Source: Pseudomonadota bacterium
GTDB taxonomy: Bacteria; Pseudomonadota; Gammaproteobacteria; Acidiferrobacterales; UBA6901
Reading direction: 5' to 3'
Assembly: GCA_027364845.1 (NCBI GenBank)
Contig: DAHXOO010000001.1
Span: forward strand, 112,212-176,211
Length of the DNA stretch: 64,000 nt
The notes beneath the pieces are model-generated. The model was not told where the DNA came from. It searched no databases and saw nothing but the letters and a program-made list of their open reading frames with translations. How positions within the stretch are numbered: position 1 is the stretch's first letter; each line of letters opens with the position of its first letter. A program made the position numbers and the translations under genes. This document shows, piece by piece, positions 23,611 to 33,749 of the stretch.

Positions 23611-24249
23611 CTAGACGAACACCGTGACATCGGCCTTCTGGGCAATTGCCAGAAAAGTCGCAGCACCGATATAGTCTTTCACCTCGGGTATAAAGTCGTT
23701 GCGCGTAAACCCGAACAGATCCACCGTCATTTGGCAGGCGATGAGATTTACACCGCTTTCGATGCATATGTTTCGTAATTCCGATATTGTGGCGACGCCG
23801 TTGTTCTTGACGGTTTTTTTCATCAGCCCTGTGGCAACATTCTCAAACCCAGGGATGTTCGCCATCATCACATTTGGAATGTTCCAGTTGATGCCTTTGA
23901 ACCATTTTGGACCAAATGGCATTTTCATCGGCATGCCGGGATTTCCGAGCGGACTAACCTTCAGGTTAAGGTCTTTTTTGAGCAGCGTGAGCCCGTAAAA
24001 TGTGAAAAAGACAGATGCGGTCCACCCCAGAGCGGCCGCTGTCGAGGACAGGATAAACGGTGGGTAAGCCCAGTCCATGGTGCCCTTCGTGGCAATGATG
24101 GCCATCGATCTGGGCTTGTTTTCTTCATATTGCTGCATGTTCGTTCTGAACTGTGCAGCGAACCACTCATCGAGCTCAGCACCAAATTTCTGGCGTAACT
24201 CAGCCGGCAAGACACCGCGCGGCGGAATTTTTTCAGTCTGTGTCGACAT
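23611..24249 (-). CDS. DsrE/DsrF-like family protein, probable sulfur-trafficking (DsrE3 type)
   Basis: The C-terminal part has the DsrE-like core with the conserved Cys in GVNLIACQMTVDLFGF. Upstream, MAIIATKGTMDWAYPPFILSSTAAALGWTASVFFTFYGLTLLKK and NIPNVMMANIPGFENVATGLMKK are typical of the DsrE3A group, which carries sulfane sulfur or thiosulfonate in sulfur oxidisers. The N-terminal 45 residues form a charged extension. The ATG at 24249 has AAAGGAGAG in front of it; the track start 78 codons upstream has none and encodes non-homologous sequence. It stands alone here, not beside tusA or hdr genes, so the exact substrate is inferred only from family. Confidence 0.85.
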   Translation of the reverse strand: MSTQTEKIPPRGVLPAELRQKFGAELDEWFAAQFRTNMQQYEENKPRSMAIIATKGTMDWAYPPFILSSTAAALGWTASVFFTFYGLTLLKKDLNLKVSPLGNPGMPMKMPFGPKWFKGINWNIPNVMMANIPGFENVATGLMKKTVKNNGVATISELRNICIESGVNLIACQMTVDLFGFTRNDFIPEVKDYIGAATFLAIAQKADVTVFV

Positions 24250-25108
24250 ATTGCTCTCCTTTGGTTGTGATTCCACCGAGTGAGCGGCTATAGTCGTCCG
24301 GACTTTTCGGCATTTCCGGACACTGCAGGACCTGGCAGCCGGCGGCCTGCCTGAGCGGCACGGCCGTGTGTGCTCGCAGTCCGGCTGCGCGGACCCACCG
24401 CCGTCGGCGACATCCCGCAGTGTTAGAGGTACGATCACAGAAATGCGGTGCGAACTTCGCCCCAATGTCATTCGGTGATCCACTACGGCAACCTCAAGCA
24501 GCGTTCTGCGCGTATCTCGGTTAATCCCCTGCGATTGCTCCGTTTCAATCGAAACTCGCCGATTTCTTTAGATCCGGCATGGCATGGGCTACGTCTCCTT
24601 GCACGATAGAGCCATGTTCCGGGAAAACTACGGAGACCGATACTGTCCGGACGGACAGGGTCTAGATACCGCAGAAGCGGCTGCCACTTGCGAGTCGGCT
24701 CAACCACGAATGATTCACGACGCGCGCAATTTTCTGCAAAGATGGCTACACCCGACGACTTTTTTCGCCACGGTTGTTCCGTTATGCAAAATTCCCGTTT
24801 GGTGCGTATCGTTAACAGGATGAATCCGAGACATCGTACTTTGCGGGTTCACACCCTGCGGGTGGCTACATAGGAGGCGCTCTCTGTCCTCGGAAATGGG
24901 AAATAGGGCCAGCAAATCCCGTAATCGACATACAAACACTCTCGACCATTAGGCAATGCAAAACAGTTTAGCCGCCAGTCTGTCAGGCGCCTTCCGGGCA
25001 TAGTTCTAGGCGGACACCGGAGCCCGACAGGACGATGACGCTGGAGACTGCGTCGGGAACCCTGCTTAGACGCGGCGTTGGAGCCACCGGGGGTTTTTGC
25101 CCGGTATG
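24250..25108. other. Gene-poor stretch
   Basis: ORFs here are short, carry no recognisable motif and lack ribosome sites. No RNA gene or clear repeat was seen. Base composition drifts to a mixed pattern like the rest of the 20-27 kb island. Confidence 0.5.
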
Positions 25109-29953: not shown

Positions 29954-30964
29954 TCAGGCCGCAGCATCGGCGCGCGCAAGCCGCTTGCGCTCACGCTCAA
30001 TGAACATGAACTCGAGCGACCGATATACAATGCTCTTTTCGCTCGTATATCGCGCGATAGCTGCAAGCGAGTATTCTGCCCCAGCCAGGATCGCATCCGC
30101 GGCCATGAGCCCGCTACGCACTGCTGGACCGATGCCCTCGCAAAGGTCACGCGTCGCCAACCCGGCGGAATCACCGGCTATGAAAGCGTTGTCGATACGA
30201 CCGACGCGAACCTCTGACCGGAGATAATAACTGTAACCCTTGGGGTCGAAACTGGCATCATGAACCATCCCGGATCGCTTCAGGCGACGAATGAGGTTTT
30301 CCCAGTGACTCCAGATGTCCTCGCCACGGCGCTTGAGCTGGCTCGCCATTCCGCCGATACCGATATTCAGATATCCCTGCGCCTTCGGCACATACCAGGA
30401 GTACCCGGGGAATCCCCGTTCGAAGAACCACAGATGGCACGCGCCGTCTCGAAAGTCGTAGGGAAACTCCTGCTCCAGCGTCACCGTCTGCAGCTCCTTG
30501 GCGCGAGGATTGGCCGTGCGAAACAAGGTGCGGTATACGGGGCACTTCGTACCACCAGCGCCAATCAAATAACGCGCCCGAAACTGGTCGTCGATCACGT
30601 AGTAGTTCCCTTCCTTTCTGATTTCACGCACATTGTGGGTCACTACCGGCACTCCCGAGCGCTTAAGCAGCCAGTCGTCGAATTCAAAGCGCCGGATCGA
30701 GTGCTGCACGCCGTTCAGGCGGAAACCAAGACCGAAAAGGTGGATATAGAGACGGTCGAAGGAAAGGAAGCGGTGGGGGTAGGTTCTGCTGTCAATCTCC
30801 AGATCGCGCACGACTTCGGGCGTTATCCAGCCCGCACACAGCTTTGTTCGCGGAAAGCTGTGTGCGTCCAGAACCCGGCAGTCCACACCATGGCGCGCCA
30901 GTTTCCAGGCGCAACTCGAGCCTGCAGGTCCGCCACCGACAATCAGGACCTCGCTTGATTCCAA
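29954..30964 (-). CDS. Geranylgeranyl-reductase-type FAD-dependent oxidoreductase
   Basis: The N-terminal dinucleotide motif VLIVGGGPAGSSCAWKLARHGVDCRVLD, the FPRTKLCAGWITPEV box (the PxxKxCxG region of this family) and NAFIAGDSAGLATRDLCEGIGPAVRSGLMAADAI near the C-terminus identify a flavoprotein of the geranylgeranyl reductase superfamily. These reduce isolated C=C bonds in lipids or act as related oxidases. PGYSWYVPKAQGYLNIGIGG is also typical. Length is 336. Its ATG lies three bases after the stop of the cyclopropane-synthase homologue, so both are made from one transcript. That pairing suggests a joint lipid substrate; the actual reaction is unknown. Confidence 0.88.
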   Translation of the reverse strand: MESSEVLIVGGGPAGSSCAWKLARHGVDCRVLDAHSFPRTKLCAGWITPEVVRDLEIDSRTYPHRFLSFDRLYIHLFGLGFRLNGVQHSIRRFEFDDWLLKRSGVPVVTHNVREIRKEGNYYVIDDQFRARYLIGAGGTKCPVYRTLFRTANPRAKELQTVTLEQEFPYDFRDGACHLWFFERGFPGYSWYVPKAQGYLNIGIGGMASQLKRRGEDIWSHWENLIRRLKRSGMVHDASFDPKGYSYYLRSEVRVGRIDNAFIAGDSAGLATRDLCEGIGPAVRSGLMAADAILAGAEYSLAAIARYTSEKSIVYRSLEFMFIERERKRLARADAAA

Positions 30965-30967
30965 GGC

Positions 30968-32290
30968 TCAACCCTCAGGTTGCCTATCCGGCACGTAGAG
31001 ACGGTCGCGCGTCCACGGTATGTCATTGTTGCTGCGTGGTGCAAAAACCACCTGAAACAGCTGCATATCGCTGACACGGAACGCCGCAATGGATCCAGCT
31101 AGATATAGCCGCCACGCGCGCACGAAGCTCTCATCGAACATTGCGGTCACGCGGTCCGCTGCTTTTTCGAATCGCCACAGCCAGTGCTCCAAGGTGCGGG
31201 CATAATGCAATCGAAGGTTTTCGACATCCAGCACTGAATACTCCCACGGCTCCAGGATCCTCATCATCTCGGCCAGGGTGGGGGGATAGGCGCCAGGGAA
31301 GATGCGTCTTTCAATCCAGGCATTCATTGGCTTCGCCTGATTGCGTCCGATCGAATGAATGAGTCCACGACCACTGTCCCTGAGACAGTGGTGAATGATA
31401 TCACCCAGCTCGCGGTAATGATCGGCGCCGACATGTTCCAGCATTCCGACCGACACGAACGCGTCGAAATCCCCGGAAATATTGCGATAATCGTCTTCGA
31501 TATACTCGACAAGCCCTTCGAGACCCTCGGCACTGGCCCGCTCGCGCGCAAATACAACCTGCTCGTGGGAAATATTGTAGGCCTTGACCTTTACGCCATA
31601 GTGCCGTGCCATGTGGCGAGCGAGCGCCCCCCATCCACAGCCGGCCTCGACGACAGTCTCTCCCGGCCGCAGATGAAGTTTCCGGCACACATGGTCCATT
31701 TTTGCGACCTGTGCCTGCTCAAGTGTCGCGCCCGGGGTGGGAAAATACGCACAGGTATAAACCATCTGTTCGTCCAACCACAGCTGGTAAAAGTCATTGC
31801 CAATGTCATAGTGCTTGTGAATATTGTCGCGCGACCCCGCAGGAGTATTTGGGTGGGTACGGCGGGTGCGCGAAATCATGCGCTGCTTCATGCCACCCGA
31901 TGGCACGGCAGTGGATGCGCGATAGACGGTTTCGAGAAACTTGACCAAATCCTCCTCGACATCGATGCGTCCGGAACTGTAACAGTCACCGAAATGGAGA
32001 TCGGGATTAGCGATCAGACGAAGCAGGGCCCAGCGGTCGGCAATGAAAACCCGTGCCGTTGGCACATTCCCACCAAGCGAAACCTCCTCACCGTTCCAGA
32101 GAAGAAAGCCAATAGGTGGATTTCCCACCACCTTCAGCAACCACCTCAATAACCACCGATCAATTCCAAAGACAGGCTGCATCGAGAAGGCGCGCGCGCT
32201 CACGTGGCTGGCACGAATGCCTGCGTCCAAAGATTGTTTGCCGCTCGAGAATGACGGTATGTCAAAAAGTTCTGCCTTGTTCTTGTTCAT
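30968..32290 (-). CDS. Cyclopropane-fatty-acyl-phospholipid synthase family methyltransferase
   Basis: The enzyme uses S-adenosylmethionine to add a methylene to unsaturated acyl chains of membrane lipids. HYDIGNDFYQLWLDEQMVYTCAYF, VVEAGCGWGALARHMARHYGVKVKAYNISHEQ, VSVGMLEHVG, LIHSIGRN and LHYARTLEHWLWRFE contain the Cys, Glu, His and Tyr residues that line the E. coli Cfa active site. An N-terminal domain of about 140 residues precedes it. Length (440) is slightly above the usual 380-410. It is the first gene of a two-gene unit with a GGR-type flavoprotein, so the product could be a cyclopropane or a methyl-branched or furan-type acyl chain. Confidence 0.9.
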   Translation of the reverse strand: MNKNKAELFDIPSFSSGKQSLDAGIRASHVSARAFSMQPVFGIDRWLLRWLLKVVGNPPIGFLLWNGEEVSLGGNVPTARVFIADRWALLRLIANPDLHFGDCYSSGRIDVEEDLVKFLETVYRASTAVPSGGMKQRMISRTRRTHPNTPAGSRDNIHKHYDIGNDFYQLWLDEQMVYTCAYFPTPGATLEQAQVAKMDHVCRKLHLRPGETVVEAGCGWGALARHMARHYGVKVKAYNISHEQVVFARERASAEGLEGLVEYIEDDYRNISGDFDAFVSVGMLEHVGADHYRELGDIIHHCLRDSGRGLIHSIGRNQAKPMNAWIERRIFPGAYPPTLAEMMRILEPWEYSVLDVENLRLHYARTLEHWLWRFEKAADRVTAMFDESFVRAWRLYLAGSIAAFRVSDMQLFQVVFAPRSNNDIPWTRDRLYVPDRQPEG

Positions 32291-32439: not shown

Positions 32440-32618
32440 CACTTGACACATACTCCTGACACCGTGCTCCAGATGCCCTGCGTGGTCCCAAGGCTCAATC
32501 CGCCGTTGACAATCGGCATGGAAATACTGCTCGCTGTGAGCGCCGCTTTGAAATGCGCCGGCACGTCATCTTCACCCTCCACATTGTACGTATATGTAGT
32601 GGACTCACCGTAATACCA
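32440..32618 (-). pseudogene. Remnant of a YjbQ-family (UPF0047) gene
   Basis: On the minus strand the frame reads WYYGESTTYTYNVEGEDDVPAHFKAALTASSISMPIVNGGLSLGTTQGIW. This matches the C-terminal half of YjbQ proteins (EG-DDMPAHI-ALT-TSL-IPI--G-L-LGTWQGI). Upstream there is no matching N-terminal half with the Ser/His active-site region, and the end degenerates after GIW. YjbQ proteins have been described as secondary thiamine-phosphate synthases. Only a GTG start remains, so this is a gene fragment. Confidence 0.7.
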
Positions 32619-33749
32619 GATGGTTCAGCCAGCGCTAAAGGTCGTGGCGTATCGAAGGGTCAGCGTTCCTCTGCCCAATGAGGCTAGCAATGTGCGCCGG
32701 ATAAGCCGTACCCCAGGCACTCGCTTACTCCACCTTTGCGCACCTAATGCTTGATCGCCGCAAAGACTAGCCGCAGCCGGCGGATCAGGATCGCCACCAA
32801 ACGAAGGCACGTAACCTACGGGCGGTGTAACCCCACTCTGGTGTATCTTGTCCTTCCAAATTTCTGCCTGTGCATCGGCAGCGCGCGAAAGATTCCCGAA
32901 AAGTGCCGACTTCACCGAGTCGGGTTCGGACTGCGCCATGATCCGGTAAAGATACGATGATTGCTTTTCTTCCTTCCAGATCTCTATAAATGACGTGGAA
33001 CACTGCTCGCGAACACTGTGGCTCTATAACTGGGTGAAAAATCGGGATACCGTGTCCCAATATGGGCTGGTTTCGCAACTACCCGGTGCGTATGGCGCGC
33101 TCATGCTCGCAGTTCGTTGGCATTCAAGCTCCCTGCCACGATGTATGGCGTGCTGCTTGGCTTCATGACGCTGTCGGCACATGCCGGAATCAGCCTATAG
33201 CCATTCAAGATTACCTCTGCGACCACCGGTTACAGAGGTCAGCCTAGGTTCGCCAATGTCAGCGTCGATCGCATTGACAGGATTCAACCCATAATCTGCT
33301 CGCTGCGGACCACGCAGGTGCTGGTGAAGTCCTGCCCTCATTTGTCCAGCAACAACGCCTATACGGTCACAGGCGAAGAATCCACGCCCTTATAAACAGC
33401 TACATGCAGACACACGGAAATGCACTCGGGTGGGGCATTACGAGAATCATCGAGCACTGAGCGCCCACCTGTCACGCATCGCTCGCGCGACAACCTTCTC
33501 GGACAATCATTGGCGTACCTGGATCTGCCGCAAGCAGCACCAATGGTCGCTCCGCTTCCTTTGCGGTATAACATCTGAATGCTTCGCTTGTAACCCAAGT
33601 CCGGGACACCGCATCGCTCCGGCGCATGACCGAAATCCGTGGCAGGATCACGGCATGCGCCCGCTCCGCGAGCTTTGTCGGGATGGCGGTACGATCCTTT
33701 CGGCACGGTCCCAAGCAGTGCGGCCCGGAGGCACGAGACATGCCGGATG
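32619..33749. other. Gene-poor stretch behind the P-type ATPase gene
   Basis: About 1.1 kb without a supported gene. The ORFs at 32625-32939 and 33359-33859 (minus) lack ribosome sites and recognisable motifs. The fragment VTPPVGYVPSFGG in the first may belong to a decayed gene that I cannot name. Next to the YjbQ fragment, this suggests a locus that lost one or more genes. Confidence 0.5.

Follow-up and report, generated by a model that had tools for sequence, protein, structure and literature searches.

The two-gene operon described here would very likely make mid-chain methyl-branched membrane fatty acids, as a hybrid form of tmpBA with an S-type reductase. What is new, judged from sequence, is this second, shorter reductase subfamily (S-type), which is sister to the TmpA of Marinobacter type. 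In the proposed pathway, TmpB would carry out the SAM-dependent methylation of an unsaturated chain to an exocyclic methylene, a step shown for homologues, then the flavoprotein, which resembles geranylgeranyl reductases (GGR), would use reduced FAD to saturate the C=CH2 to a methyl branch, giving for example 10-methylhexadecanoate. Such mid-chain methyl-branched acids serve as biomarkers and are desired as lubricants.

The pathway is supported by the conserved pair, the 55% identity to a Marinobacter TmpB, the residues T179 and L284, the BfaA homologue in locus L288, the GGR fold, the grouping of S-type with L-type (Marinobacter-type) reductases and the lack of a second CMAS protein. Counted against it were the inactivity of TmpA in the published test, the S-type to L-type identity of 32-36%, the short C terminus of the S-type and the existence of lone TmpBs.

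The tmpBA pair (tmp, ten-methyl-palmitate) was described in 2021 from Marinobacter hydrocarbonoclasticus, Thiohalospira halophila and Desulfobacter postgatei, with Desulfobacteraceae, Marinobacter and Thiohalospira given as hosts (Blitzblau et al., PMC7791843). In E. coli delta-cfa, TmpB, of the Cfa family, formed 10-methylene-type fatty acids from monounsaturated C14-C18 chains, and the enzyme of M. hydrocarbonoclasticus gave 10-methylene fatty acids in E. coli; TmpA resembles anaerobic archaeal geranylgeranyl reductases and is presumed to reduce the methylene group, but the one test published, in E. coli and yeast, showed no activity (PMC7791843). An electron donor lacking in E. coli could be behind this inactivity.

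The original prediction had suggested that an unsaturated chain is first methylated and its C=C then reduced, which is the best reading, probably right, and the same as the published tmpBA hypothesis (PMC7791843). It was mistaken in holding that no redox partner of GGR type was known, as the TmpA of tmpBA is GGR-like. Since the expected product is a mid-chain methyl-branched acid already known from Blitzblau et al. 2021 (PMC7791843), the new modified lipid that it envisaged is not to be expected.

Operon structure and conservation in the genus

The positions below are those of the window, which means the whole stretch of 64,000 nucleotides that was analysed.

32290 (start) to 30968 (stop), minus strand: tmpB-type methyltransferase gene, first of the pair, 440 aa
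31751..31756, minus strand: codons of T179 and catalytic C180 (YTCAYF), with T179 at E. coli Cfa position 138
31436..31441, minus strand: codons of L284 and catalytic E285 (GMLEHVG), with L284 at E. coli Cfa position 238
30965..30967, minus strand: three-base gap between the tmpB stop TGA and the tmpA start TTG
30964 (TTG start) to 29954 (stop), minus strand: GGR-type flavoprotein gene (S-type tmpA), second of the pair, 336 aa
30830..30838, minus strand: codons of C43-A44-G45 within FPRTKLCAGWITP, a motif common to S- and L-type TmpA

The earlier placing of a Cfa-type methyltransferase (30968-32290) and a flavoprotein (29954-30964) three bases apart on one strand was confirmed. Both genes were present in all five genomes of the genus. 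The TTG start, the three-base gap and the gene order were identical in the window and all four congeners read, so the pairing is not due to chance. The reductase was intact in all five genomes (336-338 aa, 82-90% identity), with invariant FAD and CAGW motifs. A search of other genomes for the same pair, proposed as a check in the original prediction, found it conserved outside this genome, both within the genus and in the species-wide scan, where 25 of 27 S-type loci had a Cfa gene upstream. The window pair is thus a real, conserved lipid-modification operon, a tmpBA variant with a distinct reductase subfamily.

Upstream of tmpB, a yjbQ-like gene remnant (32469-32688, minus strand) was disrupted by a shift of frame and by a stop codon in frame; the gene was intact in four congeners. 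A DsrE2-type sulfur carrier protein was encoded at 23611-24483 (minus strand), which hints that this organism metabolises sulfur. The sulfur oxidiser Thioalkalivibrio versutus contains 10-methylhexadecanoic acid (PMC8092127).

The methyltransferase

The window methyltransferase matched CMAS (PF02353) in Pfam with E=1.2e-81. Its best NCBIfam models were cyclopropane synthases, with scores below cut-off, and its closest solved structures were cyclopropane synthases too. Neither window protein reached an NCBIfam equivalog cut-off, and Pfam and NCBIfam concurred on the classes. The Cfa active-site residues were all kept (Cys180, Glu285, His312 and Tyr363), just as originally reported; these four would not separate a branch-maker from a cyclopropane synthase, and the residues preceding Cys and Glu apparently do.

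In the methyltransferase tree, the window TmpB fell in a clade of 63 rows together with Marinobacter TmpB (SH-aLRT 100). It shared 55% identity with the TmpB of Marinobacter shengliensis; the species tested by expression was M. hydrocarbonoclasticus. A PF02353 search of the organism's own genome (assembly 96% complete) gave the window TmpB as the one full-length match, with no second full-length CMAS protein, so ordinary cyclopropane fatty acids are probably not made by this organism.

The flavoprotein and the S-type reductases

Pfam assigned an FAD-binding domain to the window flavoprotein, from families other than FAD_binding_4, and a GGR_cat match below cut-off. The NCBIfam model GG-red-SF (TIGR02032) gave E=4e-33 and 115 bits against a cut-off of 158.8, which Marinobacter TmpA cleared with 166.5 bits. 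The name GGR-type is a family resemblance for the window protein because of this score, and its membership in a known GGR subfamily was ruled out on the same ground. The AlphaFold prediction, made with 29 aligned relatives (mean pLDDT 90.3), had geranylgeranyl reductases (3atq, 4opi and 3oz2; TM 0.74-0.77) as its best PDB fold matches, and flavin monooxygenases and halogenases were also among the related folds. The earlier GGR-type label therefore stood for the fold and did not stand for the family score. R39, K41, C43, A44, G45, W46 and P49 were invariant in 29 aligned sequences, with 32-36% identity between S-type and L-type TmpA in the alignment. All S-types, also outside the genus, were shorter than L-types by about 50 C-terminal residues.

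A scan with the TmpA alignment, using one genome per species, gave 80 loci. Twenty-seven of them, the S-type, were near the window reductase (48-82% identity), and at 25 of these a same-strand Cfa-family gene lay upstream, mostly within 30 bases. Another 31 were L-type, including Marinobacter, which were 32-40% identical to the window reductase and nearly all behind a Cfa gene. The remaining distant GGR loci had no Cfa neighbour. In the reductase tree, S-type (31 rows, SH-aLRT 100, with the window reductase inside) and L-type (36 rows, SH-aLRT 96) were sister groups, jointly supported at 99, and 20 GGRs that lack a Cfa neighbour fell outside them. The window reductase was not in the L-type clade and hence is not orthologous to Marinobacter TmpA.

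L-type TmpA was found in 58 of 61 Marinobacter genomes. S-type pairs were present in Desulfobacterales, Syntrophaceae and Calditrichota, which are largely anaerobic groups. The S-type is not universal in Desulfobacterales, where only 5 of 116 genomes have it, and an L-type query revealed no further close relative of the L-type among Desulfobacterales. At L094 (2883-4972), a tmpBA-like pair with an S-type reductase lay beside a PGI-like gene on a contig of 249 kb that had been binned as Nanoarchaeota; either a DPANN archaeon carries an operon for bacterial lipids or the contig was mis-binned. At L096 (1750-3936), two tandem TmpB copies, the second degraded, preceded an S-type reductase.

Roughly ten relatives (families f6 and f7, G006 and G018) had a TmpB that kept the window-type residues but no TmpA next to it, and no good TmpA match was found elsewhere in these genomes. 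Because these TmpBs persist without TmpA, the methylation and reduction steps are separable. The lone TmpBs (L072-L080 and L066), carrying the Thr/Leu marks, were mostly at one conserved site, with an S24-like gene, an xerC-like gene and lpxC- or dapF-like genes as neighbours. For these organisms the prediction is either methylene lipids or a different reductase.

Apparent exchange of partners and reductases

S-type reductases were found next to three or more distinct Cfa lineages. In the methyltransferase tree, 19 rows of S-type partners were placed at several points in the main TmpB clade, and 10 rows (Desulfobacterales, Calditrichota, KSB1, Syntrophaceae and others) in the lineage grouping with E. 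coli Cfa; the partner in L087 was of a third lineage. The AU test of a single clade for the gamma TmpBs paired with S-type gave p=0.04, which weakly rejects a single origin and lends weak support to repeated swapping. One exception to the active-site mark described below was L113, where a methyltransferase without the catalytic Cys lay beside an L-type reductase.

Locus L288/L335 of the gammaproteobacterium G431 holds a TmpB with 57% identity to the window's, followed by a BfaA homologue, a FAD_binding_4 protein 45% identical over 435 aa to mycobacterial BfaA. In the known route to 10-methylstearate, it is BfaA that reduces the methylene group (PMC7791843). Because a BfaA homologue fills it in G431, the slot downstream of TmpB appears, from gene order, to be a methylene-reductase slot open to three reductase kinds. 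Such swapping, including BfaA in the TmpA slot, gives independent support to TmpA as the missing methylene reductase.

A two-residue active-site mark

Every one of the 89 enzymes that are paired with a reductase or lie in a TmpB clade had Thr at position 138 (70 of the main TmpB clade, 14 Desulfobacterota-type TmpBs, L087 and 4 actinobacterial BfaBs, for which the BfaA neighbour was confirmed). The other 72 aligned members of the Cfa family had Ser there without exception, and Thr was absent from all 57 ordinary Cfas. This position was the sole complete separator of the groups among all 423 alignable columns scanned. Position 238 was Phe in 49 of the 57 ordinary Cfas and never in the four paired lineages, which had Leu, Met, Cys or Thr. 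The window enzyme carried both marks (T179 and L284) and did not follow the cyclopropane-synthase pattern of Ser and usual Phe. A further Cfa lineage (L133), in reversed gene order beside an L-type reductase, had Thr and Ile.

Four or five lineages carry the mark. When columns 138 and 238 were left out of the tree, the Ser/Thr state changed five times on it, and a sign test over independent pairs gave 4:0 from four informative pairs (p=0.125); with few independent events, these statistics are suggestive, not conclusive. A sample of Gammaproteobacteria and Acidobacteriota was also drawn by methyltransferase, not by reductase, in which a TmpA or BfaA neighbour was present at 23 of 29 Thr-type loci (21 of 27 minus two seed genomes) and at 0 of 28 Ser-type loci. 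At six Thr-type loci there was no reductase within the stretch read, and L302 was an exception with T138 but F238 and no reductase.

Since TmpBs without TmpA (f6/f7 and G006) keep the mark, what it indicates is probably the product (a methylene group instead of a ring), though the relation is correlational. The balance leans slightly towards the view that Thr for Ser with loss of Phe is the switch from cyclopropane synthase to methylene-former, which would have arisen in at least four Cfa lineages, each recruiting a C=C reductase, with S-type, L-type and BfaA-type interchangeable. Neither this signature nor any published residue rule separating branch-makers from cyclopropane-makers was found in the open-access literature searched. 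If the mark holds, lipid products could be predicted from genomes among annotated "cyclopropane synthases", and a direct mutational test of one cation steered to ring or branch would be at hand. The short S-types are in turn new candidates for an active GGR-like methylene reductase.

In a third active-site pattern (SIEM.EAVG), Glu occupied E. coli position 236 and the catalytic His was usually replaced by Gln; it was seen in a Cfa-family group (L204, L255, L265, L316-L317, L322-L324 and L327-L334) that is possibly UfaM-like. The G236E change in E. coli Cfa is reported to give non-cyclopropane products.

Other explanations of the pair

The methyltransferase might be an ordinary cyclopropane synthase, with the flavoprotein merely co-transcribed and acting on an isoprenoid or quinone side chain. 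GGR relatives act on isoprenoids as reductases, the four Cfa residues are kept and the best NCBIfam models, though below cut-off, are cyclopropane synthases. This explanation is nevertheless improbable, with T179 in none of the 57 ordinary Cfas aligned and the reductase neighbour confined to Thr-type loci in the sample drawn by methyltransferase. In addition, S-types stay beside a Cfa-family gene though the Cfa lineage changes, which fits a shared substrate, and Marinobacter TmpB gave a methylene product (PMC7791843).

Oxidation by the flavoprotein, a UfaD-like desaturation of the methylated chain toward a diene or furan fatty acid, seems somewhat more doubtful still. Rhodobacter UfaM and UfaD act as such a set (PMC7380195) and oxidative enzymes are among the related folds, yet the best matches are reductases, and a BfaA-type reductase is able to fill the slot. 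Furan formation also requires UfaO (DUF1365), for which no gene was seen among the annotated neighbours of the window pair (YgiQ and a P-type ATPase), and it uses O2, yet S-type pairs occur in largely anaerobic groups. Least probable of all, and very much so, is that the operon ends at methylene fatty acids, the lipid being unsaturated-branched and the S-type flavoprotein non-functional or serving another end. The persistence of TmpB alone in f6/f7 and G006 and the inactivity of TmpA in E. coli and yeast (PMC7791843) speak for it; against it stand the intact, well-conserved reductase of all five genus genomes and a short C terminus that is common to every S-type. Reduction of the methylene to a methyl branch is thus retained as the preferred reading.

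Comparison with known systems

Geranylgeranyl reductases (SaGGR, 3atq; Ta0516, 3oz2) share with the window flavoprotein the fold, the FAD motif and the Cys motif after the FAD domain. They differ in length (397-453 aa against 336 aa), and the window protein is below the NCBIfam cut-off and has a Cfa homologue as operon partner. The UfaM/UfaD/UfaO pathway of Rhodobacter also joins a Cfa-family methylase with a flavoprotein, but it leads through an internal methyl alkene to a diene and a furan and needs UfaO (PMC7380195).

Actinobacterial bfaAB, for 10-methylstearate (tuberculostearate), follows the same two-step logic, and BfaB, like the window TmpB, has Thr before the catalytic Cys and no Phe before Glu, although the two are only 28% identical. 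BfaA, however, is a FAD_binding_4 protein unrelated to GGR, and the gene order is opposite. The tmpBA operon is alike in having a methyltransferase followed by an adjacent GGR-like flavoprotein, with the window TmpB in the Marinobacter TmpB clade; it differs in the reductase, which in the window is S-type, shares 32-33% identity with Marinobacter TmpA and lacks some 50 residues at the C-terminal end.
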